Shown here: positions 23,227 through 55,570 of the stretch, piece by piece
How positions within the stretch are numbered: position 1 is the first letter of the stretch
How the letters are laid out: every line of letters begins with the position of its first letter
Virus record (IMG/VR): IMGVR_UViG_3300024257_000013
Span: 1-55,570 of that record
DNA: 55,570 bases
Direction: 5' to 3' (one strand)
DNA from: a virus
The notes under the pieces: model-generated
The model's database searches: none
What the model was told of the DNA's origin: nothing
What the model saw: only the letters and a program-made list of their open reading frames with translations
Program-made: the position numbers and the translations under genes

Positions 23227-23247
23227 ATATGCTGTATTCCTACACAC

Positions 23248-25614: not shown

Positions 25615-25657
25615 ACTGTTTCCTATAAGTAGTCATTAACATAACGAGTATCAACAA

Positions 25658-29152: not shown

Positions 29153-29155
29153 GAT

Positions 29156-29248: not shown

Positions 29249-29255
29249 GCTATTG

Positions 29256-29639: not shown

Positions 29640-29705
29640 TCAGCTTATGGCTCCTATCTCTGTTTCCTGTAAAACTTCATTGCTATACTCTTCTGGTAAA
29701 TTCAT
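29640..29705 (-). CDS. Possible 21-residue acidic peptide
   Basis: ATG overlaps the stop of the gene before it (TAATG) and the frame MNLPEEYSNEVLQETEIGAIS ends 1 base before the next start. The junctions are those of a coupled operon, but the peptide is very short. Confidence 0.35.
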   Translation of the reverse strand: MNLPEEYSNEVLQETEIGAIS

Positions 29706-29971: not shown

Positions 29972-29994
29972 AGTTTATTTACCAATAATCTCTG

Positions 29995-30831: not shown

Positions 30832-30848
30832 TTTATGTTTCTCCAAAT

Positions 30849-30942
30849 CGGCTCTTATAACAAGCCATTCTACCGGAGCGTTTCACGCTCCTCGTTTATG
30901 CCATTAGGCCAGTGCTGCGCCCGGTAAATTCAATCGTTAGAA
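30849..30942 (-). repeat. attC-like imperfect inverted repeat
   Basis: On the - strand, after the radical SAM gene, the order is CTAACGATTGAATTTACCGG, a spacer with a GGAGCGT-GAA-ACGCTCC hairpin, then CCGGTAGAATGGCTTGTTAT. The outer 20-mers pair at about 13 of 20 positions with mismatches, and the ends are of TAAC / GTTA type. This matches the architecture of an integron attC site (R"-L"...L'-R'), though the consensus boxes are imperfect. Confidence 0.45.
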
Positions 30943-30947
30943 AGACT

Positions 30948-31949
30948 TTATAGTCCTTGCTTAATTTTGAGTTTCCCACCACCTAGAATCGCATTACCGC
31001 AAGTGATCAGGCTATCTTCTTCGTCTTGCGATGGTATAAATACAAGGGTATCGAACCCGGCCCCCTTACAGCTCTCCTCCGGCTCTGTATAAGGGGTGTA
31101 AGTTTGGTAACCGTCTACTGTCTGTATGCCATTCTCCATACAGGCTGAGTTGTTATGTATGGGCGTTATTTTCACCATCCATTTTTCAGTGTCAAAAAGC
31201 TCGGCGAGTTTTGCGCCGTCAACTTCATTCCCTGATGCGTAAGCTATGTTCAGGCAATACTTTCTACCGATAGGTTTTTGAATATTTTCGAGATTCTTTG
31301 CAATATCAATAAGGGTGTGACTGCTGCCACCAAACATCTGTTCACGCTGTACCTCTGAGCTGCTGTTGATACTGATCTGTAAACCTGCCTGACCTTTGAA
31401 TAGCTCGTTTTTTATCTTCACCCATTCGTGGATTCGATTAAATGTGTGCTTATAGTCAGGGCACATTGTTGTGAAAACAGGGTGAATAACTTCAATCCTA
31501 ACGCCTGTCTCATCTTGAATTTGACGCTTATGCTCCCCTAGCCACTCAGAAAACCTCAAAACGTCCTGATTGAAAACCGGCTCACCCATTCTAGCAAAGT
31601 GGATATTTAGCCTGTCAGTGTATTTCACACTATCATAGGCATTTATCCCCGCGTAAAACTGAGCCTTTAAGTCGCTGAAGCTGACGTTCCCTGAGAACTT
31701 GATATTTGGCACATCACAAAAAGTACATTTCATTACGCACCCGTACTGAGTAGAGAGAGTTATTACCCACTTCTCCTGTAGCGGCATTATCGGCCCATTT
31801 TCTACACCATTAAGTGGGCGCGTATACCCAAGGAAATCAGCCTTTATGTTTTTATGTTTCCCGTAGTCGCCTATTGAAAGCGTCTCTAGTTTGCCGTTTG
31901 AATAGTCATCAACAATCAAGCATCCTGTCGGTAATAGAATTTTGCTCAT
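30948..31949 (-). CDS. RlmN/Cfr-like radical SAM methyltransferase
   Basis: 333 residues. Radical SAM cluster motif YGCVMKCTFC with Cys71, Cys75, Cys78, preceded by TLSTQYG as in RlmN (SSQVG). Further RlmN-like marks: FARMGEPVFN, SINSSSEVQREQMF, and a C-terminal Cys317 in LITCGNAIL, matching the second methyl-transfer Cys in RlmN. This family methylates adenosine C2 or C8 in 23S rRNA, or tRNA, and Cfr gives ribosome drug resistance. Target here is unknown. Codon and base use look more GC-rich than the neighbours, suggesting transfer. Confidence 0.82.
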   Translation of the reverse strand: MSKILLPTGCLIVDDYSNGKLETLSIGDYGKHKNIKADFLGYTRPLNGVENGPIMPLQEKWVITLSTQYGCVMKCTFCDVPNIKFSGNVSFSDLKAQFYAGINAYDSVKYTDRLNIHFARMGEPVFNQDVLRFSEWLGEHKRQIQDETGVRIEVIHPVFTTMCPDYKHTFNRIHEWVKIKNELFKGQAGLQISINSSSEVQREQMFGGSSHTLIDIAKNLENIQKPIGRKYCLNIAYASGNEVDGAKLAELFDTEKWMVKITPIHNNSACMENGIQTVDGYQTYTPYTEPEESCKGAGFDTLVFIPSQDEEDSLITCGNAILGGGKLKIKQGL

Positions 31950-32047
31950 TTCATTTCACCAAATAAAAAGCGCCTAACAAATCGATCCAGCCGACCGGCT
32001 AGGACAGCACTTTTTTCACTTTCAATGCTTTCGGTTTCTACTTTCAT
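31946..32047 (-). CDS. Possible 33-residue leader before radical SAM gene
   Basis: ATG at 32047 opens MKVETESIESEKSAVLAGRL..., ending in FGEMK with its TGA overlapping the radical SAM ATG (ATGAAATGAGC). Such overlap suggests coupling. The frame also contains GTTAGGC (31972-31978), which resembles an attC R box; both readings cannot be fully separated. Confidence 0.35.
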   Translation of the reverse strand: MKVETESIESEKSAVLAGRLDRFVRRFLFGEMK

Positions 32048-32101
32048 ACTCTCAATACCTCTTTTATTAATACGCCGTCTGCTGTTTAAGGGGTTATGAC
32101 G

Positions 32102-32314
32102 CTATAAGCTATCAATAATTTGCATCAACTTAAATCCGTCTTCGGCGGATTTGCACCAGACTGGAATATCAATATTTCCAAGTCTATGAGTGCAGCATCT
32201 TCCATCAGCAGATACATAAAAAGTCGGAATATTATCTCTAATCAATTGCGACTCTCGAATAGCTTTAAAAAGTGCTGGCTCTTTCTGCTGTACTATTGTG
32301 TTTAAATCACTCAT
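32102..32314 (-). CDS. Hypothetical protein
   Basis: 70 residues (MSDLNTIVQQKEPALFK...). Short helical N-terminus, then a beta-like part with VSADGRCCTHRLGNIDIP. Start overlaps the stop of the gene before it by 4 bases. No family recognised. Confidence 0.6.
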   Translation of the reverse strand: MSDLNTIVQQKEPALFKAIRESQLIRDNIPTFYVSADGRCCTHRLGNIDIPVWCKSAEDGFKLMQIIDSL

Positions 32315-32589
32315 TTTAAATCCTTAGTTACTTTTATATGAATACTTGGAATACCTTCAAATAGCTTTGATATACGTTCCGCAGAGGCTTCTAACTCCTG
32401 CAGGCTAGTGCTAGTATCAGTTCTTAGTAATAAGTCTGCCAGGCTCTGTATAGCCCCTTCTAGAGACCCATACCAGCTGATAGCTGTCCAGGTATCTTCG
32501 CCTTCTTTATCTTTTCCGCGTTTGCACACCATCCAGGATGAACTATCACTCTTAATAGCGTGTTTATCGTCTATAATCATTAAATTCAT
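32311..32589 (-). CDS. Hypothetical protein (DUF5405-like pattern)
   Basis: 92 residues. The pattern SWMVCKRGKDKEGEDTWTAISWYGSLEGAIQSL resembles small phage proteins with a beta-hairpin followed by helices, possibly DUF5405. Coupled with the next gene by overlap. Function unknown. Confidence 0.62.
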   Translation of the reverse strand: MNLMIIDDKHAIKSDSSSWMVCKRGKDKEGEDTWTAISWYGSLEGAIQSLADLLLRTDTSTSLQELEASAERISKLFEGIPSIHIKVTKDLK

Positions 32590-32660
32590 CTTTTCAAATC
32601 CTCAGTAGTTTCACTGCTTGTACAGGCTTATTCCCAGTAGATACGGTACCCGTCAGCTGC

Positions 32661-33077
32661 TTATGGTTCCAATAGACCATCTAAGTCTGAATTAAAAAAT
32701 GTTCCACTGATATTCTCATTTATGAAATCAGGATCAAATAAAGCATCATGGTGCATCAATAAGGCCACTTCCAGGTAGGTAGCAGCTTTCTTAGTGCTGC
32801 ATTGATATAAAATCTCTTTAGAGACTGCCTTCAGGCCCTGTGTAAGCTCGCTAGAGCCTTCATACTTGGCAAAGGGCAAATCCACCCATTCTTTACGAAC
32901 GTAGTTCTTACGCTTAGACAGCTGCTTCTTTGTCGGTTTTAGTCGCCTTATAGCTCGAACACTTTTTTTACCGATATACATACGCCCACAGGCATAAGTG
33001 ATCAGGTACACAAAATCAGTACAACCGGTAAGTAAATCGGCATGAGAATCTACTGGGGTACCATTGTAAATCCACAT
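32661..33077 (-). CDS. GIY-YIG-like phage nuclease
   Basis: 138 residues. VYLITYACGRMYIGKKSV fits the GIY...YIG core, followed by a Lys-rich stretch, KYEGSSELTQGLK and YLEVALLMHHDALF. This layout matches a family of small phage GIY-YIG-fold putative nucleases. The first motif is VYLI rather than GIY, so activity is uncertain. Could be a domesticated homing nuclease. Confidence 0.65.
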   Translation of the reverse strand: MWIYNGTPVDSHADLLTGCTDFVYLITYACGRMYIGKKSVRAIRRLKPTKKQLSKRKNYVRKEWVDLPFAKYEGSSELTQGLKAVSKEILYQCSTKKAATYLEVALLMHHDALFDPDFINENISGTFFNSDLDGLLEP

Positions 33078-33106
33078 TAGATAACACCATAAATACTAGT
33101 CATCGG

Positions 33107-33373
33107 TTAGCACTCTTCACTGTTGCTGTCATAACCTGTCTCTTCGGCTACTTCTGTAAGAAATTTCTGTCTCTCCTCAGACGAGAGTACAGGAACCCTT
33201 GCTAATACTAAGTTAGGTAATTCCATTGGGTCATCTAAGTGCTCCATAACAAAATGTAATTCATGAACATGAAATTGATTAACTTCAATTGTATTTCTAA
33301 AAGCTCTCCAAATACGTTTTTTATTGTCGTATTTATACCTCCAAGAATAAAATGTTTTATGTATTTTATTCAT
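33107..33373 (-). CDS. Hypothetical protein
   Basis: 88 residues from the ATG at 33373 (MNKIHKTFYSWRYKYD), which sits just after the stop of the preceding gene; a longer in-frame start at 33421 would run inside that gene. Basic aromatic N-terminus and acidic C-terminus (AEETGYDSNSEEC). No family. Confidence 0.6.
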   Translation of the reverse strand: MNKIHKTFYSWRYKYDNKKRIWRAFRNTIEVNQFHVHELHFVMEHLDDPMELPNLVLARVPVLSSEERQKFLTEVAEETGYDSNSEEC

Positions 33374-33377
33374 GGTA

Positions 33378-33614
33378 TTAAGCACCCAAAAAGTAAGAGA
33401 TATAAAAAGTATCTCTTTCAATTTCTGACTCTTCTAAATCAGAAGCACTTATATTTAAGTCTCTAAGAAAACTTGCTATATCCGTATGGTCATAAATTTT
33501 AGTTTCGTTTCCGAAAGTATTATCGCTTAGAAATACGTACTCACCTGTACTAGTAGATTTTTTAATGTATGTACCTTCAAGTTCTTTTGTAACTACGGGG
33601 TGTTTAAAAGTCAT
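33378..33614 (-). CDS. Hypothetical protein
   Basis: 78 residues from the ATG at 33614, which has AAAGGAG 8 bases upstream. An in-frame ATG at 33710, close behind the primase-like gene, would add 32 residues (MIRKYQKIQSFKNVCKW...) and cannot be ruled out. Acidic C-terminal half. No family. Confidence 0.6.
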   Translation of the reverse strand: MTFKHPVVTKELEGTYIKKSTSTGEYVFLSDNTFGNETKIYDHTDIASFLRDLNISASDLEESEIERDTFYISYFLGA

Positions 33615-33712
33615 TATCATCTCCTTTAACTGTAATAGTTCATAAATTAATTTATGTACCCACTTACAGACATTTTTGAAAGATTGTATTTTTTGGTATT
33701 TTCTAATCATTA

Positions 33713-35917
33713 TTAAACTCTCCGTAGTGCAGGTGTGATAAGCGTTCTCTTTAAGCGGTCTTTGTCCATTGATTCCATCCAGTAGTCGTTAACTTCATGA
33801 GCCAGCTTTTCTATGTATTCTTCATCAGCTCCCAGGTCAATAGCATACGCTAATGCACGGTATAGTAAAATAGACCGTTCTCCAGGTTCTGCAGTAAAAG
33901 CAAATGAGAAAGTTTCACGAGGATCAGCTAACTTATTGTTTTTTTCTTTAGGAGGTAATTCTGAAGGAAGCTTTGGCTTGTTACGTAAACACTCACTGGC
34001 ATTTTCCAGTAAATATTTAGTTTTAAGTGTAGATCCATCCAATTGCTCAAGAATATTTCTATCAGCAAATGAGAAGAATATCTGACTTTGAGGAAGACTA
34101 TCTACAACCAACCCAAGCTCTTTTCCAATTTCCTGGATAAATGCTTTCCACAGTTGTGGCTCTATATCGACGATAGAATCCAGTTCCAGCAAAACTCTGA
34201 ACTTAAATTCATTCTCAGGATCACTTGTACGGGCAACATAATGGTTGTACTCATTGAGTAATACATGCACCTCTTCATCAGTGATGTACGACTTATCTAT
34301 ATCGAGAACAACAAATTTGGTACCGCCTTGAACATTGTCTTTACCACGTTTTCCATCAGCAAACACAAATGGACCATAAGCAGCATTATTTTTGAGCATA
34401 TCTCGCATTTCAGCAAAATCTGTATCATAGACATCAAAGCCATCTTTACAGTTCCTGGCCATATACTCTTTAAGCTCTTCCCCTTTCAGGTCAGTATCTT
34501 CAAAGAAAATACAAGATACACCGATTTCATCGGTAATAATTTGCTCATCGTATTGAATACCGTTTTCGTGAACTGTGTAACGTCCACCTTCATCGTAACT
34601 GTTTGCCAGTTTAGCCAATTCCTCTACTTTGCTTTTCGAAGAACCGGCACCAGTAACATATGATAACTTTCTGAGTTCATGTAATGACAAGAAGAAAGAA
34701 CTATCTTCAGCTTTGTAGCTGCACATATCAGCCAGTTGCTCATAAGGCTCTTTTACAAGTTCCTTTTCAAATTCACTGAGTTGTGGTGCCAGTAGTTCAA
34801 CGGTATTGATAGCATAGGCATACATTTCCTCATTAACGAATTCTCTGCCGTGCAGAATTGCATACGTACCGGCTAACTTAAGGGCTAACCACTGCTTATG
34901 CTTTCTACTTAGTTTTGATATTGGGTACTTATTCGATTGATCATCAGATATAAAATTGTTGTACTCCAGGTAAACATCAAATAACTTAGTTGCTTCCGGG
35001 GTTAACGTAAGAGGTTCCTGGGTGGTAGTTTCAACCAAACCAGAAGTTAGATGGCTCAATGCTTCCTGTGCAGCTAGTACACGTTCACGTTCCTTTTCTT
35101 TCAGTTTGTAGAGTTCATCAATGGAGGAAATTTCCAACCGTGTAGGAACTTCAGGTGTGAAAGTAAAGATACTTCTACGTGCCAACTGGGTATTGAATAC
35201 CAGTTTAAATTTTGATTTGATTTCATTATTAAACAGCAGTGCTTCCTGGGAACCAAAGAACAAAGCGTTCACCGGTAACCCCTTAATTGCTTGAGTCTGA
35301 TTTTCAGAAGACTTAACAATTTTTGGAGCAACATTTCCTAGATCGTAAGCTTGCGAAATTATTTTAATAATATCCGTCATAGCTCCATTGGTCTGAAGCT
35401 CAGAACCAATTTCCGATGTAGTGATACTGCCGGAACCTAATGGGTTCTGCCCGATATCAGCAAAATGATGCAGTAAGCCTTCAACAGTACCTAATCCGGC
35501 CTGTAACGGTTTTGGTTCAACGTAGAACATCTTCCATTCATGCTTACCTTTTCCTTCCAGCTTGGCCTTATTTTCGGCTTTAACTTTGGCATACTCTCTA
35601 CGTTCATCTTCGATCTGCATATAGCCCATATCGAGAGACTTTCGAATAGTATTCAGGGATTTATCTTTTGACATACCTGATCCAGCCAAAGCAAATACAA
35701 TGGCGTTAGTAGGAACTAACGTACCATCGTACAGCTTGATAGGTTTTCTCAGATGTGATGAAAAAGTAATAAGCTCTGCCAGTGTAATCGCAAGTTTTAA
35801 CTTAAACGGAATCTCACCAGCTATAGTATTAATTCCTTTCTGTACAATATCGGGAAAAGGTCCAATATTGCCTGTACGATCTTTTATGTAGTTGTCTAAG
35901 AGCTTGAAAGTATCCAT
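33713..35917 (-). CDS. DUF3987-like ATPase plus AEP-type primase domain
   Basis: 734 residues. N-terminal ATPase-like part with the P-loop variant LAGSGMSKDKSLNTIRKSL and FGSQEALLF, as in DUF3987. C-terminal part (from about 515) has VVLDIDKSYITDEE, FKFRVLLELDS and QIFFSFADRN, matching the catalytic core pattern of archaeo-eukaryotic primases. Corresponds in style to N4 gp42-type proteins. Likely primase-helicase for phage DNA replication. The Walker A is degenerate, so helicase activity is uncertain. Confidence 0.75.
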   Translation of the reverse strand: MDTFKLLDNYIKDRTGNIGPFPDIVQKGINTIAGEIPFKLKLAITLAELITFSSHLRKPIKLYDGTLVPTNAIVFALAGSGMSKDKSLNTIRKSLDMGYMQIEDERREYAKVKAENKAKLEGKGKHEWKMFYVEPKPLQAGLGTVEGLLHHFADIGQNPLGSGSITTSEIGSELQTNGAMTDIIKIISQAYDLGNVAPKIVKSSENQTQAIKGLPVNALFFGSQEALLFNNEIKSKFKLVFNTQLARRSIFTFTPEVPTRLEISSIDELYKLKEKERERVLAAQEALSHLTSGLVETTTQEPLTLTPEATKLFDVYLEYNNFISDDQSNKYPISKLSRKHKQWLALKLAGTYAILHGREFVNEEMYAYAINTVELLAPQLSEFEKELVKEPYEQLADMCSYKAEDSSFFLSLHELRKLSYVTGAGSSKSKVEELAKLANSYDEGGRYTVHENGIQYDEQIITDEIGVSCIFFEDTDLKGEELKEYMARNCKDGFDVYDTDFAEMRDMLKNNAAYGPFVFADGKRGKDNVQGGTKFVVLDIDKSYITDEEVHVLLNEYNHYVARTSDPENEFKFRVLLELDSIVDIEPQLWKAFIQEIGKELGLVVDSLPQSQIFFSFADRNILEQLDGSTLKTKYLLENASECLRNKPKLPSELPPKEKNNKLADPRETFSFAFTAEPGERSILLYRALAYAIDLGADEEYIEKLAHEVNDYWMESMDKDRLKRTLITPALRRV

Positions 35918-36735
35918 TATGCACCAACGGAACTAACAACGGATTCAAAGAATTCCACTTCGTTAAATTCATTACCTACGTTCATACAACCTGGTAATTC
36001 AACAGGATTGCCATATCCGTAAGCAAGATCATCACCATAGATATCTTCAATAACCGCGAAGTAAAACTTCCGAAGCAATTTGTCGTTTAACACAGAAGAC
36101 ATGCCTTCTACATCTTTGTGCTCTTTGTGGGAAAATACAGGAATACTTGAAAAGAATTGTTTACCCCGTGCATTGGTAACGTTGTTAATTGGCAGAATTA
36201 ACATAATTTTTATAAAAATATGCTGACGTTCCAGTTCTTCAATAGTAGCCAGTAGTTTAGCGATATTCTCCTGAATAAAGGAGTTACTAGTCCGCCATGG
36301 GTAGCTGATGCTGATATACAATTCGTAGAAAAAGTCTATGTACTGAACAGAGGGTGTAATAACACAATCAGGCTCACCGTTGGCATATTTGCCCACATCA
36401 AAACCTACAGCGGTACCATCTACACTGTAACGGTAGTTTTCATAAACTTCCCCAGTGATCAGTCCACGCTTTTTCAAGTTTGACCTTACCAGGTTACGAA
36501 TTGATGCTTGTTCCTCTGAAGGAAACCCGGCCTCACCATGCAGTAGTTTATCGAGTGCATCAGCATAAGTGACACCACAGTTGTCATCATTTTTCTGTGT
36601 AAGCTTCGATACATGATGCTTAAAATGATCCAGATTGCGAAATGCAGCGTAATCCATATTTGTCATAGTTTTTTTCCAAGATTCTGGAAAAATGGTATGC
36701 AAAGGAGTATGTAAAGCTAAATTTTGGGTAGTCAT
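35917..36735 (-). CDS. vWA-like partner of MoxR ATPase
   Basis: 272 residues. The FDVGKYANGEPDCVI region and the following IKIMLILPINNV resemble the degenerate vWA-type proteins encoded beside MoxR ATPases in N4-like phages (N4 gp25 style). Overlaps the ATPase gene by 4 bases at its start and touches the primase-like gene at its end. Probably forms a chaperone-like pair with the ATPase; the client is unknown. Confidence 0.65.
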   Translation of the reverse strand: MTTQNLALHTPLHTIFPESWKKTMTNMDYAAFRNLDHFKHHVSKLTQKNDDNCGVTYADALDKLLHGEAGFPSEEQASIRNLVRSNLKKRGLITGEVYENYRYSVDGTAVGFDVGKYANGEPDCVITPSVQYIDFFYELYISISYPWRTSNSFIQENIAKLLATIEELERQHIFIKIMLILPINNVTNARGKQFFSSIPVFSHKEHKDVEGMSSVLNDKLLRKFYFAVIEDIYGDDLAYGYGNPVELPGCMNVGNEFNEVEFFESVVSSVGA

Positions 36736-37508
36736 AGGACCTCCTGTTGAGACTTCAGTAAATTGACCAAATCTGGAAATGTCTTACATTCAGATTGATC
36801 AGCGTATTTTGGTAAACTTTTAATTTTAGCGTTGTAGTTATCAAACATTAAATTGCTTTTTCCAACTAAGCGGTATACGAAATCATTCAACACATTTAAA
36901 TTTTTACGAGTTTGATAACGTAAGCTATCACGCATAGAAACTACGATATCAGAGTTTGCATTTTTAACTATTTTGCGAAGGATATTCATATTCCGTAACG
37001 TTTCACGGTCCACTAAAGTAGCTTCAAGCTTTTGATCACGGTCAATATCTATTATATCAAATCTGTCCAATGTAGCAGCATCTAACTTGGATCTTCCAGT
37101 GTAATGATGGTGCTCATTCTGAGGATTTGCGGTAGACATTAAACGGAAATCTTTGTGACACTCAACGATACCAGTGGGAAAGGATAAATAGCCGTTTTCT
37201 ATGGTATTTAAGCTTAGCAACACGTTAGCATCACCAGCATCAATCTCATCTAAAAGGTACAAACCTCCATGAGTTATGGCCTTATGCAGAATTGACGGAA
37301 TATAGGTACCGTCAACACTCATGTATCCTAATAAATGAGATAATGTTGTTTGACGAGTCATTGAGATACTGTAGAAATCAAGATCCAATGCTTCAGCTAC
37401 CTGTTTTGCCAGAGTGGTTTTACCGCTACCTTTTTCACCAGTAAGCATTACTGGCATAGAAACATTTACAAGTACTTTAACTTCTTCAAGTTTAAAATGG
37501 TACGTCAT
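36732..37508 (-). CDS. MoxR-like AAA+ ATPase
   Basis: 258 residues. Walker A GEKGSGKTTLAKQ, Walker B LYLLDEIDA, sensor 1 MSTANP and arginine finger region LDAATLDRFD give a complete AAA+ (AAA_5) core of MoxR/CbbQ type. N4 gp24 is of this kind. Coupled by overlap with genes on both sides. Likely remodels a protein complex with its vWA-like neighbour. Confidence 0.85.
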   Translation of the reverse strand: MTYHFKLEEVKVLVNVSMPVMLTGEKGSGKTTLAKQVAEALDLDFYSISMTRQTTLSHLLGYMSVDGTYIPSILHKAITHGGLYLLDEIDAGDANVLLSLNTIENGYLSFPTGIVECHKDFRLMSTANPQNEHHHYTGRSKLDAATLDRFDIIDIDRDQKLEATLVDRETLRNMNILRKIVKNANSDIVVSMRDSLRYQTRKNLNVLNDFVYRLVGKSNLMFDNYNAKIKSLPKYADQSECKTFPDLVNLLKSQQEVL

Positions 37509-38112
37509 TGTTGTCTCCTTCTGGTGCAGACTTTGGAGCTGGTTTCAGACTTACATTGAATAGCGCTTTATCGTCTTCTTCAAAAATAGCCATGTACAGA
37601 ATAAAAATTTTCAGATTTTCTTCTGTATCAAACACTACAGATGTACCATTATTTGATAATGTTATGTGTTTAGGTAAATCCTCTAAAACTTCTTTGTATT
37701 TCAACAATCCTCGAAAATTTAGTGATGTCATATCTTTTTCTTTGTCCAACATAGCCATTACAAGAAAAAAACACATGATGTCTTTAATATCAAACTTACT
37801 TAATTCGGCATCCCATTTATCATTTTGTTCTTCTAGGCTATTGGCCATAGCTACAAATACCGATAAGACTTTCTCATCAATACGTTGAGGATAAAATTTG
37901 CTGACCAACTCTGTATAAAGAGTAACTCCGGTCATACTCGGTAACGTTTTGGCATGTTCTCTAATTTTATCTATGCCAAACTTTAAAATACTGTAAAACA
38001 GTGAATTTGTGGTGTTTCTATCAATCCCTTTACTTCTTGAAAGTAAGGTATCGTAGATATAAATAGGTGAAGATTTTTTGGTAATAAACGGTAGGAATTT
38101 ATTAATTTTCAT
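37492..38112 (-). CDS. Hypothetical protein with SSB-like C-terminal tail
   Basis: 206 residues, mainly helical. The last residues, PEGDNNDVPF, copy the acidic D-D-x-P-F tip by which bacterial SSB recruits replication and repair proteins. The phage ssb itself lacks this tip. Overlaps the MoxR ATPase gene by 17 bases. It may bind host SSB partners, but the body is not recognised. Confidence 0.65.
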   Translation of the reverse strand: MKINKFLPFITKKSSPIYIYDTLLSRSKGIDRNTTNSLFYSILKFGIDKIREHAKTLPSMTGVTLYTELVSKFYPQRIDEKVLSVFVAMANSLEEQNDKWDAELSKFDIKDIMCFFLVMAMLDKEKDMTSLNFRGLLKYKEVLEDLPKHITLSNNGTSVVFDTEENLKIFILYMAIFEEDDKALFNVSLKPAPKSAPEGDNNDVPF

Positions 38113-38115
38113 GTA

Positions 38116-38345
38116 CTCCTATAAAATTAAGTCTATTCGGTAGGCTATTAGCAACAATATGTTCCTCTCTTGCTTTTGCTGCGAGTAAAGCTGTTTTATG
38201 TATACCTAAGTATGTGTTTTTTCTTTATTCACCAATTGAGAAATATACTTTCCTGTAGACTTGTTAAGATGGGATCCTAAATACCCGCTGGTATTTGATT
38301 TTTGAAGTCTTCTAATGAATAAGTTTTTACATTTTTATCTAAGAA
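38116..38345 (-). pseudogene. Decayed AP2/HNH homing endonuclease
   Basis: In two - strand frames there are fragments of an AP2-type endonuclease: NTSGYLGSHLNKSTGKY followed, after a frameshift, by KNTYLGIHKTALLAAKAREE. These match the AP2 and C-terminal parts of the intact endonuclease at 27757-28497 (SGYIGVSRPKR and FKTALIAAIRREEF). No HNH part remains and stops interrupt it. It lies between the 206-residue gene and a terminator. Confidence 0.65.
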
Positions 38346-38376
38346 AAATCGCCTCCTCCCGGCACAGGGAGAAGGC
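38343..38376 (-). terminator. Intrinsic terminator
   Basis: On the - strand GCCTTCTCCC pairs with GGGAGGAGGC (10 pairs, one G-T) around a 6-base loop and is followed by GATTTTTC. It ends the 115-residue gene transcript. Confidence 0.8.
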
Positions 38377-38397
38377 AATAAAACTTACAAAAGAATC

Positions 38398-38745
38398 TTA
38401 TAGGTAATCAAATTTAGTTCCGCCGGTAATGTTGGCCAGAACAGGATTAGTTGCTACCAACTCTTCCATTTTCTTTTGAACATTGACACCTTCATTGCAT
38501 TTCGCAAATTCCAGTGCACGAGATTTTAGAGCCTGAACTTCAGCTCCGATAATCACCAGCTTGCTGTCTTCTTCAAGTTCAGCAACATCCATCATACCAA
38601 ATGTGGTATTCATTTCAGGTGAGCTGATATCTTGATCAGCATTACCGTAAGCTTCACGGGCAGAAGTAACAATGTTACCAATTTCTTCCAGCTTCTCAGC
38701 ATCAGAAGCGTCTTTGTTCTTTAATATTGCGCTAATAGAGGGCAT
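38398..38745 (-). CDS. Hypothetical protein with its own terminator
   Basis: 115 residues, acidic and helical (MPSISAILKNKDASDAEKLE... to NITGGTKFDYL). The start has AGGAGATATAT upstream. Flanked by a 73-base gap before it and a strong terminator after it, so it may be expressed strongly by itself. Similar small acidic proteins are abundant in N4-like phages, but no function is recognised. Confidence 0.65.
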   Translation of the reverse strand: MPSISAILKNKDASDAEKLEEIGNIVTSAREAYGNADQDISSPEMNTTFGMMDVAELEEDSKLVIIGAEVQALKSRALEFAKCNEGVNVQKKMEELVATNPVLANITGGTKFDYL

Positions 38746-38818
38746 ATATATCTCCTAAATAATACTCACTAAATAAGGAAAATTATGCATAGTGAGTAAC
38801 TGCACAATTTTTGTAAAA

Positions 38819-39184
38819 CTAATAATCTTTTTCTTCTTTCAGAAAACCTTCAAATATCGAGACTCTTACTGATTTTTCAACCATGATGCTTTTTGGCAGT
38901 GCAAGCATCTTATTCATTACTCGACGCACAGCTGCTAGAGACTGTTCTCTTTCATACAGAAAAACGTCTATTTGGTAATATCTTGCTAAATAGCTATTGC
39001 CCATTGGCAGTACGTCAAAGTATTTATTCATTTCTTCTATTACTTTTTCAAAAGAGCCTGCATCAAATTCTTCTTTAAGCATAGCTATGTCATAATCTTT
39101 ACACTTTTTTAGGCCTAATCTTTGAGAACCAATAACAACTGCACTTGGTACTGCTAGTAGTTTTGCTAAAAGACTTTTATTCAT
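38819..39184 (-). CDS. Nucleotidyltransferase-fold protein
   Basis: 121 residues. AVVIGSQRLGLKKCKDYDIAML matches the GS...DxD core of minimal nucleotidyltransferases, and YYQIDVFLYER could give the third acidic residue. Two bases from the helicase-intein gene stop upstream. Substrate unknown; phages carry such proteins near replication genes. Confidence 0.55.
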   Translation of the reverse strand: MNKSLLAKLLAVPSAVVIGSQRLGLKKCKDYDIAMLKEEFDAGSFEKVIEEMNKYFDVLPMGNSYLARYYQIDVFLYEREQSLAAVRRVMNKMLALPKSIMVEKSVRVSIFEGFLKEEKDY

Positions 39185-39186
39185 AA

Positions 39187-41610
39187 TTACTTCCTCGTAA
39201 GTACAGGCAACATATTTGCATTGTTTAAGTTAACACCACATCTAGAACATGCTACATAATAACAACGCATTGCCACCAGGTCTTCGTGTGTTTCTACACC
39301 ACCTTTATCGATGATATCTCCTACCCGAGCATTGAGATCGTCTGCAATATAAACTGTTTCATATTCCAAACCTTTGGAGGTAAATACTGTAGCAATCACG
39401 TAACTAAGATCGACTTTTGATTCTTTTGCCATTTTGTATAAATTAAATATATTTACACCCTTACGGTTCAGTGTAAGAAGTAAATTTACAGCACTCTTTG
39501 TTTCCTGATCATCGATACATGCCAACAAATGGCTCAGGTAAGTATCCCCAGGTTTGCGGTTCTTTGTGTAATTTTCGTACTCTTCTTCAAGGTACTTATA
39601 CTTTTTTTGGTACACCTTTTTACCCTGGCCAGTTGATACTATAGCTAGTGGGTATGAGAATATTTCAGAGATGTTTCTAAGAAGGTGAAAACCTTTGTTT
39701 TGAGCTAATCTATGACTAATCTTTGAGATAATAGCAGCATTTGTTAAAGTACAATATAAAACTTTATCATTTTTGACAGGTTCATCTGTACCTACAAATT
39801 TAAACTCTTTGTCAGTATACTTTTGCATAAAAGATTGAATACGTTCAGCAATATCTATACTGCAACGAAAAGATTGAGTTAGGTTGAGTACTGGAGCATC
39901 TTCTAGTTCTTCGAAGCCGTCTACCAGATTTAAGAAATCGTAAATAGCCTGACTAGGTTCACCTAATCCAAGTTTTTTTGGTGCCTCAATAAGTTTGAAG
40001 ATTTCTAAAGCTACTGCAGTTGTATCATTTATTTCATCCAGGATAACCAGGTCATACTTACATTTGACAGTACCTTCAACCAATAAGAGGTGAAAGTACT
40101 TCAACATGAAATTGAAGGTAGGTGCCAACGTTCCTTCGAGCATCATTTCAATGTACTTAATAGCCAGTTCCTGTAGCTTTACTTCATCCAGGGCACTCTC
40201 CATAAATTCAAACATATCTACTGAAGCAGAAACGTAGAACAAATTGATAGCCTGTATGACTTTGTATTTTGCACTGTAAGAGATTTTCTCTTTAATACAG
40301 GTGTAGGAAATGTCACTAATATCCTGTTTAGGTTTTGCGTACCGGTAAGCTAATGCATGCAGTGTTTTACACTCAACATTAGTATTTCTGAATCGATACT
40401 TTCCCTCTTGCACAATGGCTTTGTTAAAGGCTGTATACAGTCCTCTAGATGGATTAATCTCATCAGCGATACGTTCACTCATAAAACTATTATGAGTAGT
40501 TACATAATCATCCGTAATATATAAATTATCTCCAGATACCGTAATGCATTGCTGTTCTTCTTGATAACAAAGTTTTTCAATACTGACTATCGCTTTTCTT
40601 ACTGTATTTTGTTTTCTAGGTGTTACTTTTATAGCCTTACGCTTTAGGCTGAAGGGATTAAAATCATTAAATCGTATTATGATAGTAAAACAGCTTCTGT
40701 TGTCTTTTTTATCATACAAATGTCTAGTTGCTGTACCGCCTAATGACTGAACTAATTCTGTAATATCTTTTGCTAGTTTTTCTGACGTAGTAGAATAAGT
40801 TACACGATTTCTTGTTCTTACATTTCCATCTGAGTCCATTAATCCATGCAGTAAATCTATTCTTTGAAGTTTACTTGAAAATTTATAGGTATCTGGAATA
40901 AACCTTTCATGAGAATATGTACCATGAAGGTTTAACTCTTTAAGTATCCTTTTTAAGCTGTGATCTCCGTGTTTTTGTACAGAATGGTTAAATACCTGTT
41001 GTAATCCTTTTTCTGAGGTATACCTAATCTTAGCCGGTTTTGTACCTTCAGGTAAAAGTGTTATACATTTATCTATGATACTTTTATCTTCTGAATAGCT
41101 ACTTAAACACACCTGAGTCTGAAAACTCCCATCAGCTATAAGTGCTCCCAGTAGATACGGATCTAAGGGTAATTCTACATAATTTGTAGCAATATTTGTA
41201 AGGGGTACTTTAAACTTATAGCTTTTAGTATTTTTCAAATTTTCTTTCAGTAACTGTTTTAAAGAAACAGCCCTATATTCTTTATTACGCCAATTTTGGC
41301 TATTTACATACCATAAATGATTAAGTCCACATCTAGCTTTACTTCCATCACTAAAATTTATTTCATACACATCTTTTATACCCTGTGGGTGAATTGCTAA
41401 TACTGTGTTTATAGTATTGTAAGGACTACATACTTTATCACCTACTTTAATTTTTCCAATGGTAGTCCAACCAGTAGGTGTAATAATTTTACTGCTTAAA
41501 GGTTGTTCTTTACCAGTACCGGCACCGGCTGATACGAGCAGTATTCCATCGGTGCTAACCACATGATCTTTTACGTCATGTTGTTCTGGAGTGTATTTTG
41601 TATAGCTCAT
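39187..41610 (-). CDS. UvrD-like SF1 helicase containing an intein
   Basis: 807 residues as precursor. Extein motifs: SAGAGTGK (Walker A, residues 27-34) joined after splicing to SFMSERIAD, then LVILDEINDTTA, GEPSQAIYDF, LTQSFRCS, TVFTSKGLEYETVYIADD and MRCYYVACSRC. Spliced product would be about 467 residues, a typical small phage UvrD/Dda-like helicase. Residues 35-374 are an intein (separate entry) inserted right after the P-loop Lys, so the ATPase is inactive until splicing. Acts in DNA replication or recombination. Confidence 0.9.
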   Translation of the reverse strand: MSYTKYTPEQHDVKDHVVSTDGILLVSAGAGTGKEQPLSSKIITPTGWTTIGKIKVGDKVCSPYNTINTVLAIHPQGIKDVYEINFSDGSKARCGLNHLWYVNSQNWRNKEYRAVSLKQLLKENLKNTKSYKFKVPLTNIATNYVELPLDPYLLGALIADGSFQTQVCLSSYSEDKSIIDKCITLLPEGTKPAKIRYTSEKGLQQVFNHSVQKHGDHSLKRILKELNLHGTYSHERFIPDTYKFSSKLQRIDLLHGLMDSDGNVRTRNRVTYSTTSEKLAKDITELVQSLGGTATRHLYDKKDNRSCFTIIIRFNDFNPFSLKRKAIKVTPRKQNTVRKAIVSIEKLCYQEEQQCITVSGDNLYITDDYVTTHNSFMSERIADEINPSRGLYTAFNKAIVQEGKYRFRNTNVECKTLHALAYRYAKPKQDISDISYTCIKEKISYSAKYKVIQAINLFYVSASVDMFEFMESALDEVKLQELAIKYIEMMLEGTLAPTFNFMLKYFHLLLVEGTVKCKYDLVILDEINDTTAVALEIFKLIEAPKKLGLGEPSQAIYDFLNLVDGFEELEDAPVLNLTQSFRCSIDIAERIQSFMQKYTDKEFKFVGTDEPVKNDKVLYCTLTNAAIISKISHRLAQNKGFHLLRNISEIFSYPLAIVSTGQGKKVYQKKYKYLEEEYENYTKNRKPGDTYLSHLLACIDDQETKSAVNLLLTLNRKGVNIFNLYKMAKESKVDLSYVIATVFTSKGLEYETVYIADDLNARVGDIIDKGGVETHEDLVAMRCYYVACSRCGVNLNNANMLPVLTRK
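40489..41508 (-). mobile_element. LAGLIDADG intein with class 3 (WCT) splicing residues
   Basis: 340 residues (35-374 of the host protein). Starts EQPLSSKIITPTGW, so the first residue is Glu, not Cys, Ser or Ala. Block B GLNHLW gives His98 and Trp100; block F QCITV gives Cys355; block G VTTHN gives Thr372, His373, Asn374, with Ser375 as +1 extein. Trp-Cys-Thr at these places is the signature of class 3 inteins, which splice through the block F Cys. Homing endonuclease motifs: LLGALIADG at 153-161 and LLHGLMDSDG at 253-262. Confidence 0.85.
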
Positions 41611-48019: not shown

Positions 48020-49042
48020 TTAGCTTAGTGCATATGAACTGTTCAGGATGTCTTCACTTAAGTCTGAGCTGTATTTATTAATTACAGCTTCTTGACCTGA
48101 AATATCAAATAATACATTTTTGAGAATATCCATATCAGCAAGTTCTGCCATAACTTCTCTGTATATTTTGACTAATGCTCCTGCATTACAAGGATGTACT
48201 CCATAAGAATCGTGAATAGTAGTAATATCAAAGTCACACCTAAGTACAACTTCTTCCAGTACTTCGGAATCTAACCAATGACATATGTTAGCTGGTAAAC
48301 TTGCATCATTACTACGAGCCATACACACCTCAAAACGTTGAGTAAACGTACTATGATCAAGTTCATCTACTTCAATTCTTGCATCAATAAAGTCTTTAAC
48401 ATTGTATACCACAGTATTTCTATCTAACCCTAACCAGATATACTGAGAACTGAGAGGTTCTACATAGCTATTGATAACTTCTTTAGCTACTTCAGCACCA
48501 GGAGTAATTTCTGATAATACGTTATAAAAAACTTTTAATTGAGTATCGTTAAATATCCTTTTAGGCACAGCTTTAGAATTATAATTGTGAGTCATAATTG
48601 CATCTTTAACATGTATTCGTTTTAATCCTTCACCTGTTTTAACTAATTTAATACGCAATTGAGGAGATAATTGCTTATTCATTAGCTTTACAGTATTAGT
48701 GTAAAGATCAGGTCTTTTACCAGTATTAATTAAACCACACTGCTTAGCAGTCTCTTTACAACCACTTAAGATAGCCATCATTTGATGTCCACTATTTACA
48801 CTGTCTAAATGCATGATGTGGCCTGTAGGTTTACCGTTTAAGGTGTCTCTATAGGCTATTAATGCTTTACGGTATAGTAATGGTTCATCTGCATATCTAA
48901 TGATTTTCCATAGTTGATCTAATGTCCTTTCATTAACCCATGTTAACCTTTTATCCCAGGTTAATTTATCTTTACCATATGTATTGGCAATATCAATCTT
49001 AAGCCAATCAAGAGGAGTAAATTTATCAGTAATATTACACAT
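48020..49042 (-). CDS. N4-like RNA polymerase subunit RNAP2 (C-terminal part)
   Basis: 340 residues. T7-type motif A HLDSVNSGHQMMA with Asp80, motif B KRIHVKDAIMTHNYNSK with Arg142, Lys146 and Tyr154 at T7-like spacing, motif C TIHDSYGVHP with Asp278. N4 RNAPII is made of two proteins, gp15 and gp16, which together equal one T7-like polymerase and transcribe middle genes. This is the catalytic C-terminal subunit. It acts with RNAP1 at 49358-50248. Confidence 0.92.
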   Translation of the reverse strand: MCNITDKFTPLDWLKIDIANTYGKDKLTWDKRLTWVNERTLDQLWKIIRYADEPLLYRKALIAYRDTLNGKPTGHIMHLDSVNSGHQMMAILSGCKETAKQCGLINTGKRPDLYTNTVKLMNKQLSPQLRIKLVKTGEGLKRIHVKDAIMTHNYNSKAVPKRIFNDTQLKVFYNVLSEITPGAEVAKEVINSYVEPLSSQYIWLGLDRNTVVYNVKDFIDARIEVDELDHSTFTQRFEVCMARSNDASLPANICHWLDSEVLEEVVLRCDFDITTIHDSYGVHPCNAGALVKIYREVMAELADMDILKNVLFDISGQEAVINKYSSDLSEDILNSSYALS

Positions 49043-49076
49043 ATTGTTTTTCCTTATTTGTTTCTCTTTATTATTA

Positions 49077-49094
49077 GCCCTCCGTTAAGAGGGC
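49077..49094 (-). promoter_or_regulatory. Intergenic hairpin before RNAP2
   Basis: GCCCTC-6 bases-GAGGGC perfect 6-bp hairpin between the 81-residue gene and RNAP2; no T-run on the - strand, so more probably an RNA stability or processing element than a terminator. Confidence 0.4.
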
Positions 49095-49101
49095 AAACAA
49101 A

Positions 49102-49347
49102 TTACGCCCAGTACATAGCCTTCGAGAGCTTAAAGAACTCTTCGGGTGTAACAATGCTACCGTCGACGGATACATCGATTGCTATGTTGGCAGTGTATAT
49201 GCCGACATAGTAATGTACCTTCACTCGCATATCTTTGAAAACACCGATATAGAATCTGCTGGTCTTGATTTGGATAAAGTCCTTGATAGGGGCTTTACGC
49301 ACAATTGCTAAAAGAGATAAAAGTAGTAAACGTTGTTCATTATTCAT
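49102..49347 (-). CDS. Small protein between RNAP1 and RNAP2
   Basis: 81 residues (MNNEQRLLLLSLLAIVRKAP...). Hydrophobic helix at the start, then beta-rich IQIKTSRFYIGVFKDMRVKV. Lies exactly between the two polymerase subunit genes and has a somewhat different base use. No family; could be an accessory to RNAP or an insertion. Confidence 0.6.
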   Translation of the reverse strand: MNNEQRLLLLSLLAIVRKAPIKDFIQIKTSRFYIGVFKDMRVKVHYYVGIYTANIAIDVSVDGSIVTPEEFFKLSKAMYWA

Positions 49348-49357
49348 GTTATTTCTC

Positions 49358-50248
49358 CTAATCTGTTATTAGTTGTTTATCGCTAAATTCAAGTAAAGAA
49401 CGTTTATATTTTGTACCTTGTAAATTTACATGATAACCAAGACTATAAATTCTTCCTCTAAAGTCTTTTTTATGTACAAAATAGAACTTGTTACCAGCAT
49501 TAATGAGCTTATTGCAAGTGTCTCTAGACTGTTTAACATGCAAATAAAACTGTTTAAGAGCTTTTTCCTTTAATGGTTTGGTAGGCAGTTCTTCTTGCTC
49601 AAGCATTTCTTCATTAATGCTGAAGCTAACTTGTTGTAACTGGTTAATGGCACAAGTATCTATCCAGTAATCATGTTGATTTAATCTGCCAAGTATTACT
49701 GAATCAGTAGCCGTTAGATATCCACCACGGTAACTGGTACTATCCCAATCTCTTGGGATGCATAACATTGGAGGTAAGAAAGAAGTTCTTTCAATAAACT
49801 CTAGTGCAGTAGTACTTAACGTATAATGACTTTCAATAGCTAATGTATCAGTATGATTTGTAGTAGTTGCTCTATGATGTAGAGAATACAAACCAACATT
49901 ACTGCAGACAGCTATCAATTCGCTTGCAGTTTTAAGTCCTTCTAACTGATCATCAAAATCCAGATAATTACTCAATAAGGCCACTGCTTGCTGTATTGGC
50001 ACAATACCTTCTAAAGGTAAAATGACAATATGCATTTCAATAGCTAAATCCAGGGTATTAAAAGGACTTAGTTGCTGAATACGAGTATTTTTGCTGTCGT
50101 AATATATCTTTGCTCTGTACTCTGCAATTGCTTCAGCCATAGGCCAAAGTAGACTATCACTACCACAATCTATATCTTTTAAGATAACGGCATGTATATT
50201 CTTTCTGCTGTACATTTCTTCAACGATTTCTTGTTCAATCTTCATCAT
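49358..50248 (-). CDS. N4-like RNA polymerase subunit RNAP1 (N-terminal part)
   Basis: 296 residues. The C-terminal end has KKDFRGRIYSLGYHVNLQG, matching the DWRGR promoter/template motif of T7 RNAP (TxxGR family), with DFRGR at about 262-266. The rest corresponds to the region before motif A. As in N4 gp15, this subunit needs RNAP2 to be active. Starts at ATG 50248 (an ATG follows at 50245). A terminator separates it from the early gene upstream. Confidence 0.88.
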   Translation of the reverse strand: MMKIEQEIVEEMYSRKNIHAVILKDIDCGSDSLLWPMAEAIAEYRAKIYYDSKNTRIQQLSPFNTLDLAIEMHIVILPLEGIVPIQQAVALLSNYLDFDDQLEGLKTASELIAVCSNVGLYSLHHRATTTNHTDTLAIESHYTLSTTALEFIERTSFLPPMLCIPRDWDSTSYRGGYLTATDSVILGRLNQHDYWIDTCAINQLQQVSFSINEEMLEQEELPTKPLKEKALKQFYLHVKQSRDTCNKLINAGNKFYFVHKKDFRGRIYSLGYHVNLQGTKYKRSLLEFSDKQLITD

Positions 50249-53804: not shown

Positions 53805-53869
53805 GTGGCCATAGCTCAGTTGGTAGAGCAAATGCCTGTGGCGCATACTGCCTGGGTTCGACCAATTAT
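53805..53869 (+). pseudogene. Truncated tRNA-His(GUG) remnant
   Basis: A normal tRNA 5' half: acceptor strand GTGGCCA, TA, D-arm GCTCAGTTGGTAGAGC, anticodon loop CTGTGGC (GUG, His) on a stem of 4-5 pairs. After the anticodon arm a GGGTTCGA T-loop is present, but the T-stem does not close and the 3' acceptor strand is missing; the sequence runs straight into the tRNA-Glu acceptor. Likely broken by a deletion between neighbouring tRNA genes. Confidence 0.65.
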
Positions 53870-53944
53870 ATCCCCGTGGACAACCGGTCAAGTCACTGGG
53901 CTTTCATCCCAGCATAGCGAGTTCGATTCTCGCCGGGGATACCA
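53870..53944 (+). tRNA. tRNA-Glu (anticodon TTC)
   Basis: Full cloverleaf by eye: acceptor ATCCCCG / CGGGGAT (7 bp), D-arm around GGACAACCGGTCAAGTC, anticodon stem CTGGG / CCCAG with loop CTTTCAT (UUC), T-arm GCGAG-TTCGATT-CTCGC, discriminator A and encoded CCA. Bacterial/phage type. May support translation of late AT-rich messages. Confidence 0.92.
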
Positions 53945-54110
53945 TTTTTAAACCTGTTCCTTCGGGCATCGAAAGCTCAATTCTTTCCACACCCACCAAT
54001 TTTTAGTTTCCCGAACGGCTGGCGGCATAGGCACAGGCGCAGCCTGGGCATATCCGGTGCCCCCCCGGGCACCAGCCAGCTTATGAGGGACAGTTTCTGG
54101 TTACTTACAT
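53945..54110. other. GC-rich structured stretch after tRNA-Glu
   Basis: No gene. GC content jumps well above the surroundings. GGTGCCC-CCCC-GGGCACC hairpin at 54056-54073, enclosed by a GCTGGC / GCCAGC pairing (54018-54080). Could be a small RNA, a termination/packaging signal or a recombination scar. Confidence 0.45.
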
Positions 54111-54236
54111 AATATTACTAATTGTTCATAAAGTTAATTTATGAAGTATTATTGCCCTTATTTCTTCTTCCTCCTTCCATAAGAAAACGTGCAAAAAATA
54201 CTTCATAAATTAATTTTACTCACAATTACTAATATT
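54111..54236. repeat. 40-bp imperfect inverted repeat
   Basis: Arms at 54111-54150 and 54197-54236 match at about 35 of 40 positions when inverted, including a perfect 17-bp inner part (TTAATTTATGAAGTATT). The 46-base spacer is pyrimidine-rich on its left. Very AT-rich, placed 230 bases upstream of the RepL-like gene: a candidate replication origin or recombination site. Confidence 0.7.
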
Positions 54237-54302
54237 ATTGGTTTGGCGGCACTATTGCGAGCACGTAAGAATATATAAAGAGAAATTATTTTTAGTTGCT
54301 AA

Positions 54303-54354
54303 GTGTTTGATTTTAAACACATTGCAATTTCCACCTGTGTTCAGGCTGGAACAC
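54303..54354 (+). promoter_or_regulatory. Two dyad operator-like sites upstream of repL-like gene
   Basis: GTGTTT-GATTTT-AAACAC at 54303-54320 and GTGTTC-AGGCTG-GAACAC at 54337-54354 share GTGTTY-N6-RAACAC; centres are 34 bp apart, about three helical turns, on the same face of DNA. Typical of tandem sites for a dimeric winged-helix or HTH regulator, perhaps RepL itself. Confidence 0.55.
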
Positions 54355-54469
54355 ATTTGTACCGCGGCTGGACCACAAACAGCAATATTGATCAGCTAAA
54401 CTGGTACATTTGGTGTTTTTTGTTTAAATTATGTGGTATTATTATTGGCACATTAGCCAGGAAAGAACT

Positions 54470-54877
54470 ATGAAAGATTATTTAGACGCAAATAGATATA
54501 CGCTTACAGACAACGAAACAGGAGAAATAATGTATGTTGATAGTATTGCTAAAGAAGCTGATAAACGCTACTGGGAGAAAACGTATGCCAAAACTATAGC
54601 TGAATGCTTTGAGTTAGTTGGAAACGCACCAACTAAGGTTCTTGCACATTTTTTAAGGATTAAAGATTCTAACAATCAAATAAACGGAACTGTAAGAGAA
54701 ATGGCTAAAGATATGGAAGTGTCCAAGACTACGGTGACTAGAGTAATGAGCGTATTAACAGAAGCAGGTTTTATGAAGAAACGTAGAAGCGGTTGTTATA
54801 TGCTATCTCCTGACGTAATAAAGCACGGCAGTAGAGGTAAAGGAATTATGGTGTTAATGTTATGGAAAGGCTTGTAA
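54470..54877 (+). CDS. repL: RepL-type plasmid replication initiator
   Basis: 135 residues from ATG 54470, with AGGAAAG 7 bases upstream; an in-frame ATG at 54431 lacks a site. LTDNETGEIMYVDSIAKEAD, then REMAKDMEVSKTTVTRVMSV (winged helix recognition part) and GFMKKRRSGCYMLSPDVI match the RepL family (PF05732) of staphylococcal/bacillar plasmids and some mobile elements. RepL proteins start plasmid replication and bind their own leader. In this window it suggests plasmid-like maintenance, or re-use as a regulator. Confidence 0.82.
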   Translation: MKDYLDANRYTLTDNETGEIMYVDSIAKEADKRYWEKTYAKTIAECFELVGNAPTKVLAHFLRIKDSNNQINGTVREMAKDMEVSKTTVTRVMSVLTEAGFMKKRRSGCYMLSPDVIKHGSRGKGIMVLMLWKGL

Positions 54878-54954
54878 TAGCAGTATCTGATGGCAAGCAA
54901 GATGATTTAGAAAGCATTATTAAAGAGTTAGAAGTTCACGTTAACGTGCCATAA
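54862..54954 (+). CDS. Possible 30-residue peptide after repL
   Basis: ATG inside the repL end opens MERLVIAVSDGKQDDLESII..., ending after VHVNVP. Overlap of 16 bases suggests coupling. No family. Confidence 0.4.
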   Translation: MERLVIAVSDGKQDDLESIIKELEVHVNVP

Positions 54955-54972
54955 AACATATGGAGTAATCTT

Positions 54973-55098
54973 ATGAAACTTACTAAAATTGAGGAGAAGC
55001 GGCTAATTAAAAAAGCCCATAAACTTATTGACCGAATCGAGAGCAATCTTGACCTCATTGTCAAAGCAGTTAGTTCAAAGCAACAGAAGGCAGCATAA
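54973..55098 (+). CDS. Small helical protein
   Basis: 41 residues (MKLTKIEEKRLIKKAHKLID...) with TGGAG 8 bases before ATG. Highly charged amphipathic helix (RIESNLDLIVKAVSS). No family. Confidence 0.5.
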   Translation: MKLTKIEEKRLIKKAHKLIDRIESNLDLIVKAVSSKQQKAA

Positions 55099-55261
55099 AA
55101 AGAAAAATAAGCCAATTACAGGTACTACCTCATTTCAAGTAAGCGTCACTAGTGGTAATGAGCTTTCATATAATGAGTATTCAGATGGTGTGTCATACAT
55201 ACCAAGCGATGCTAACTTGGAAACAAATAAAGTTATTTCTAAATTGCAAAAATATAGTTAA
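55028..55261 (+). CDS. Doubtful frame overlapping the helical gene
   Basis: 77 residues if started at a TTG (55028), largely overlapping the 41-residue gene in another frame. The later part (SFQVSVTSGNELSYNEYSDG...) has protein-like composition, but no ATG/GTG with a ribosome site is available. Could be the 3' part of a frameshifted gene. Confidence 0.3.
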   Translation: MTESRAILTSLSKQLVQSNRRQHKKKNKPITGTTSFQVSVTSGNELSYNEYSDGVSYIPSDANLETNKVISKLQKYS

Positions 55262-55305
55262 GTAAGCTACACTGTTTGGATAAACTGGCTTTACTACTTA
55301 ACTTT

Positions 55306-55551
55306 ATGACAAAAAATTTGCAAGAATATCTAAAATTAGCTGATTCCAAATCTGTTGATGTGCTGCTGTGGGTACTCGATAACCGCACAAATGATAATCG
55401 GCTTTATTCCACATTAGATTCCATAGCCGTTTCTTGTAACGTCACAAAAGTGACGGTTAGTAAGTTGTTTCAGAAATTATACAAAGCTGAATTTATATAT
55501 AAAATACGAAACGGTCAATACCAGCTAATAAATATCGATGGCATTCTTTAA
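55306..55551 (+). CDS. Second RepL-like winged-helix protein
   Basis: 81 residues from ATG 55306 (a TTG at 55276 would add 10). LDSIAVSCNVTKVTVSKLFQ and AEFIYKIRNGQYQLINIDGI follow the same winged-helix plan as the C-terminal half of the RepL-type protein (helix-turn-helix then beta wing). It lacks the RepL N-terminal part. May be a regulator or partner of RepL. Confidence 0.6.
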   Translation: MTKNLQEYLKLADSKSVDVLLWVLDNRTNDNRLYSTLDSIAVSCNVTKVTVSKLFQKLYKAEFIYKIRNGQYQLINIDGIL

Positions 55552-55570
55552 AAGAAAAGATATTGGCCGG
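55538..55570 (+). CDS. Possible gene start cut by window end
   Basis: ATG overlapping the end of the RepL-like gene by 14 bases opens MAFFKRKDIGR and runs past the window. Too little to assign. Confidence 0.35.
   Translation, partial: MAFFKRKDIGR

Follow-up and report, generated by a model that had tools for sequence, protein, structure and literature searches.

We propose that a RepL replicon, consisting of an initiator gene and an upstream pair of iterons spaced at 22 bp, has become part of lytic DNA replication in a lineage of N4-like phages, a reading to which we assign a probability of about 0.5. The window, the 55,570-nucleotide stretch of viral DNA analysed here (IMG/VR record IMGVR_UViG_3300024257_000013), encodes near its right end a full-length RepL and a shorter, core-only paralogue, mini-RepL. 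Counterparts of this locus occur in the isolated Alteromonas phages vB_AmeP_PT11-V19 (OP751378; V19) and vB_AmeP-R22Y (PP212876; R22Y). The genes that enter the argument are as follows.

15392–22330, plus strand: virion RNA polymerase (vRNAP), N4-proper type (phrog_2206, 1122 bits)
22537–41610, minus strand: V19/R22Y-type replication block (helicases, exonuclease, family-A DNA polymerase, primase, CobS-like ATPase)
48020–50248, minus strand: split T7-like RNA polymerase genes, N4-proper type (PF00940)
53870–53944, plus strand: tRNA-Glu(UUC) (ARAGORN; Rfam 56.5 bits)
54470–54877, plus strand: repL, full-length RepL, 135 aa, ATG behind AGGAAAG (PF05732, E 3.2e-22)
55306–55551, plus strand: mini-repL, core-only RepL paralogue, 81 aa, ATG at 55306, TTG at 55276 also possible (PF05732, E 3.4e-6)
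55538–55570, plus strand: start of a T5orf172-type gene (PF10544, E 9e-5), complete (139 aa) in contig L004 at 11069–11488

The RepL protein matches PF05732 at 79.2 bits (cut-off 20.3) over profile positions 14–134 of 164, which bears out the family assignment that an earlier note on this DNA had made from the letters alone and had proposed to check against this profile. It has an N-terminal part, a winged helix and a conserved C-terminal Trp, and shares 29–39% identity with homologues from V19, R22Y, HS1, plasmids and IMG/VR contigs. The predicted model shows a winged helix, its pLDDT being about 90 across residues 70–110. Comparison of this model with known structures was set aside as a means of identification, being non-discriminating: it resembles generic winged-helix regulators, and the solved structures retrieved were likewise generic regulators only, with weak E-values. 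Helix-turn-helix (HTH) profiles of regulators score here as well. The description of RepL as a family of Gram-positive plasmids was too narrow, since members also occur on plasmids of Proteus, Providencia, Arsenophonus, Erwinia and Moritella.

The second, shorter winged-helix gene reported earlier is also present. Mini-RepL matches PF05732 at 27.1 bits (cut-off 20.3) across profile positions 44–116 of 164 only, and lacks about 45 N-terminal and about 20 C-terminal residues of full-length RepL. It is kept in V19, R22Y and the contigs L020 and L024. All five mini-RepLs fall into a single clade (support 100/99) when 24 RepL sequences are placed in a tree; the clade is nested among phage RepLs beside that of L006, which gives mini-RepL a single origin within phage RepL. 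Compared with the window, mini-RepL is the better conserved of the two proteins, at 48–49% identity versus 29–38% for RepL in the same genomes.

The genome that carries these genes is N4-like. Its vRNAP (2312 aa) is closest to those of Larsenimonas and Vreelandella N4-like contigs and has no match in V19 or R22Y; the split RNA polymerase genes are 27–36% identical to those of N4-proper genomes and essentially unmatched in V19 and R22Y; and the large terminase subunit (TerL) groups on the N4 side. Phage structural genes and a plasmid-type initiator thus occur in one genome (vRNAP, TerL, RepL), and, as noted before, repL stands apart from the phage's polymerase-based replication genes, which lie at about 22.5–41.6 kb on the minus strand.

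A chimeric assembly, in which a plasmid fragment had been joined onto a phage contig, was named beforehand as a finding that would overturn this picture, and chimeras do occur in this collection, as a RepL-bearing 198-kb contig elsewhere proves to be one. For the window this explanation is excluded: three contigs from other metagenomes (L003, L004 and L005) span the junction, are 99.6–99.9% identical to the window up to its last base and run on into the T5orf172-type gene, the small terminase subunit (TerS) and TerL, and isolate genomes show the same gene order. The supposed rightmost position of repL is therefore a mere contig cut site. When IMG/VR was scanned with a pattern from the RepL alignment, 14 contigs came back; RepL lies upstream of T5orf172-TerS-TerL in every one of them, and in some mini-RepL and a gp49-type gene stand between RepL and T5orf172. 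About ten N4-like genomes show the order RepL (often with mini-RepL)-T5orf172-TerS-TerL, among them the isolates V19 and R22Y, which have RepL and mini-RepL at the same place (annotated as hypothetical in V19; the R22Y record is unannotated). The T5orf172-type protein is 47–56% identical in V19, R22Y and G005. In a TerL scan, RepL and T5orf172 were absent from the flanks examined of TerL loci of other N4-like lineages. The 198-kb chimera (L023, IMGVR_UViG_3300022843_000001, 198,785 bp) joins about 131 kb of a T4-like-looking phage to a 65-kb N4-like genome (G011), and the join point lies at similar tail-fibre-like genes.

The main reason for reading RepL as replication machinery is the mosaic structure of the genome. 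Most genes of the block at 22.5–41.6 kb are 46–71% identical to those of V19, R22Y, G005, G011 or G013, and the window DNA polymerase and primase are only 20–31% identical to those of N4-proper genomes. RepL, mini-RepL and T5orf172 are of the V19/R22Y type, like the replication block, against a packaging and transcription background (TerS, TerL, vRNAP and RNA polymerases) of the N4-proper type; the junction between vRNAP and replication block also occurs in an independent contig. RepL is thus, as judged by sequence type, co-inherited with the replication block. This association is partly ascertained, because most of the long genomes behind it were found through RepL. An unbiased search with the primase returned V19 and R22Y as the only close relatives; in the more distant AD45-P phages (35%), relatives of the block are present and RepL is undetectable.

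Turning to the DNA upstream of repL, five elements were distinguished.

54109–54238: long AT-rich imperfect palindrome (58-nt arms, 79% complementary, folding z-score −9.4)
54269–54311, plus strand: conserved AT-rich element, GAATATATAAAGAGAAA ... TAAGTGTTTGAT, with counterparts upstream of repL in relatives
54302–54321: possible third, weaker dyad, AGTGTTTGATTTTAAACACA, 34 bp from iteron 1
54336–54355: dyad/iteron 1, TGTGTTC-AGGCTG-GAACACA, with perfect 7-bp arms, the sole exact match in the window
54358–54377: iteron 2, TGTACCGCGGCTGGACCACA, 22 bp from iteron 1 and 14/20 identical to it

The palindrome corresponds to the inverted repeat described earlier; as a conserved origin hairpin it was rejected, being strong in the window and inconsistent among relatives. 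Of the tRNA genes claimed for this region, the tRNA-Glu is intact, and the other stretch (53811–53867) is degenerate, tRNA-like sequence below the Rfam cut-off. The AT-rich element (GAATATATAAAG...) lies just upstream of the iteron pair and has counterparts upstream of repL in V19, R22Y, L006, L016, L019, L020, L021, L022 and L024; its strict form is single-copy wherever found. Since the TATATAAAGGG element reads TATAGGGGAGA/TATAGGGAGA in V19 and L024, a T7-like or other phage RNA polymerase promoter was weighed and rejected: the element is single-copy and kept across genomes with different RNA polymerases, which makes a replicon element seem likelier than a promoter.

The two window dyads keep a 22-bp register (shuffle P 0.01). 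When lags of 12–60 were left free upstream of repL, lag 22 ranked first of the 49 in the window, with modest identity between copies (12/18 to 14/20). It was also the top lag in V19, R22Y, L016 and L020, making five of 10 phage loci, and was not the top lag in the remaining five; among other RepL loci it was top in 9/13, with copies 18/18 identical in four plasmids. Random stretches of phage genome ranked lag 22 first in 3.7% of cases, and the mean over loci was highest at lag 22 in the phage set and the other-RepL set alike. When dyad pairs 20–24 bp apart were sought upstream of repL, each of the eight phage loci tested gave exactly 22 bp as its best spacing. By count alone the dyads are modestly enriched, with 7 that have perfect 7-bp arms where about 2.8 were expected over ten loci; the 22-bp register carries more weight than this count. 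Half-site sequences vary by lineage (TGTGTTC..GAACACA in the window, GTGAC..GTCAC in V19 and L024, GGACT..AGTCC in R22Y, TTTAGTA in L016 and L021), as do the RepL recognition helices. Repeats with 22-bp spacing, 90–220 bp upstream of repL, recur on Firmicute, Campylobacter and Moritella RepL plasmids (L132–L136, L198–L200). RepL is the sole annotated protein on a 1,279-bp S. epidermidis plasmid and on the 1,527-bp S. ruminantium plasmid pONE430, so members of the family plausibly suffice as sole plasmid-encoded initiators and the 22-bp-spaced repeats plausibly belong to the origin. Such repeats give a concrete feature by which RepL origins can be sought.

From this anatomy we infer how the locus could work. 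RepL dimers would bind the two dyads at 54336–54377, about 95–135 bp upstream of repL, melt the AT-rich DNA beside them and bring in the phage helicase, primase and polymerase encoded at 22.5–41.6 kb, such that forks would start near the junction of the divergently transcribed early end and terminase end. Because mini-RepL keeps only the DNA-binding core, it could occupy RepL-type sites without recruiting a replisome, and may thereby repress repL or limit initiation in a dominant-negative, copy-control-like role. If correct, this would identify, for one N4-like branch, an origin and an initiator of lytic replication that can be tested, and would be an example of a lytic phage that has taken up a plasmid replicon along with a DNA-binding-only paralogue, possibly a brake.

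Alternatively, the iterons could be autoregulatory operators, standing as they do before a winged-helix gene, and RepL and mini-RepL would then be a pair of ex-plasmid repressors or activators that time the terminase-end operon and start no replication. The dyads do sit in the repL promoter region, where the products of the locus would bind them, and in the window they are essentially confined to repL, as autoregulation predicts; the scores of regulator HTH profiles and the likeness of the RepL model to generic winged-helix regulators fit as well. RepL is, however, co-inherited with the replication genes and with neither the RNA polymerases nor the terminase, and regulators would have no need of the conserved N- and C-terminal parts that mini-RepL has lost. 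RepL retains the full plasmid-initiator architecture together with the 22-bp iteron spacing, and we regard a purely regulatory pair as possible, though on the unlikely side.

A role at the genome end, with RepL acting alongside TerS and TerL in packaging or terminus formation, is suggested by the position of the locus, which abuts TerS/TerL. According to its published description (PMC11705849), R22Y is a lytic phage that has no lysogeny genes and carries a direct terminal repeat (DTR) of 335 bp; we confirmed the exact 335-bp repeat, and the first complete gene within it is repL. A conserved terminus-like motif, GGGTCCCAT-N~9-11-GGGGGG(G)TA, occurs just upstream of the repL locus in the V19/R22Y clade, adjoining the mapped DTR end of R22Y (R22Y 280–306, L008; V19 69264; G005 26952(-); G009 29066(-); G011 10700(-); G013 9652; L006 4867; L019 6959), and is a probable terminase site of that clade, judging from its placement. 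In the window, however, RepL is paired with TerS and TerL of the other type and no GGGTCCCAT-type motif lies upstream of repL, the only resemblance being GGGGGGGTACCTTC at 52426, which leaves a packaging function very improbable.

The earlier note had read the RepL module as a sign of an episomal, phage-plasmid state, in which the RepL/iteron unit would replicate the circularised genome in surviving cells and mini-RepL would provide copy control. Mini-RepL might in principle also act as a lysogeny repressor or immunity factor. By anatomy, RepL and its 22-bp iterons do make a complete plasmid-type replicon, and N4-like genomes with ParA and RepL (Vreelandella), Rep_3 (Larsenimonas, circular) or an HTH protein (Acinetobacter A47 and pRBH2-3) are extrachromosomal contigs in isolates. 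Against this, the window lineage has no detectable partition gene (neither PF13614 nor a ParA P-loop motif in the window, V19, R22Y, G005, G009, G011 or G013) and no integrase (PF00589), and a ParA scan of IMG/VR returned nothing. Pattern scans of 84,980 bacterial genomes gave no carrier, tblastn searches gave no relative in bacterial genomes or plasmids, and PLSDB gave no match; a TerL scan of bacterial genome contigs returned only other N4-like lineages, and the RepL scan was empty. The absence of carriers is no proof, because the genome scans are pattern-limited. The lytic character of R22Y and the association of RepL with the lytic replication type also speak against an episome, which we consider rather unlikely for this phage, and about equally doubtful is a dual arrangement in which one RepL/iteron unit serves both lytic initiation and a circular episome, with mini-RepL as the switch that holds a plasmid-like copy number. 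Were the dual arrangement correct, Schitoviridae would hold several independently built phage-plasmid branches with interchangeable initiators (RepL, Rep_3 and HTH-type). The RepL of the window most likely serves lytic replication, with a hypothetical episomal option.

The phage-plasmid idea is sound for other N4-like branches, because genomes with ParA and RepL or Rep_3 stand as separate contigs, several of them circular; they look like phage-plasmids. The Vreelandella venusta contig NZ_BJUL01000016 (75,948 bp, L162–L165), N4-like and a contig of its own in an isolate, encodes RepL (L162 7361–7864), ParA (L162 6341–6958) and a 91-aa, small ParB-like partner (L162 6072–6344), and is a candidate N4-like phage-plasmid. 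Larsenimonas suaedae contig6 (74,886 bp, L166–L169), N4-like and circular by a 123-bp end overlap, has the initiator swapped for Rep_3 (L168 9626–10384) beside ParA (L168 8828–9457); its ParA and partner are 47% and 48% identical to the Vreelandella counterparts. That RepL and Rep_3 replace one another next to related ParA cassettes supports the assignment of RepL as an initiator in N4-like phages. ParA, a small protein and an HTH protein are also encoded by A. baumannii pRBH2-3 (NZ_CP110465, L183/L137), a complete circular 75-kb N4-like 'plasmid', and by a 74-kb N4-like contig of Acinetobacter sp. A47 (L174–L177; 127-bp end overlap). A further N4-like contig from an isolate genome, Pantoea eucrina contig2 (73,671 bp, L170–L173), has a 100-bp end overlap, and no ParA-like motif was seen in it. 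Integrated N4-like proviruses have already been described (PMC10654107); none of the searched papers that join Schitoviridae with phage-plasmid or extrachromosomal appears, by title and abstract, to describe elements of the present kind. ParA and plasmid initiators in N4-like genomes from isolates bear on the belief that the family is strictly lytic.

The proposed RepL replicon of lytic replication can be set against four known systems. The lytic replicon of phage P1 (repL/oriL) likewise consists of a phage initiator gene with the origin at the gene and serves lytic replication (PMC9948254); P1 RepL was rejected as a homologue, since it has no Pfam match and is an unrelated protein, not a member of PF05732. 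The Vreelandella venusta contig is likewise an N4-like genome whose RepL has repeats at 22-bp spacing, but this RepL is distant (24%) and stands at another place, beside ParA, with N4-proper replication genes and putative circularity. V19 and R22Y share with the window the order RepL, mini-RepL, T5orf172, TerS, TerL and the replication block, and differ in that their terminase, vRNAP and RNA polymerase are of another type and their RepL is annotated as hypothetical or not at all. The RepL plasmids (the 1,279-bp S. epidermidis plasmid, pSK3, pONE430 and Moritella pMVIS41) have the same PF05732 initiator with full-length architecture and the same 22-bp-spaced upstream repeats, whereas the window RepL resides in an N4-like phage of about 60–70 kb with its own polymerase, primase and helicase, and is accompanied by diverged iterons and a core-only paralogue.
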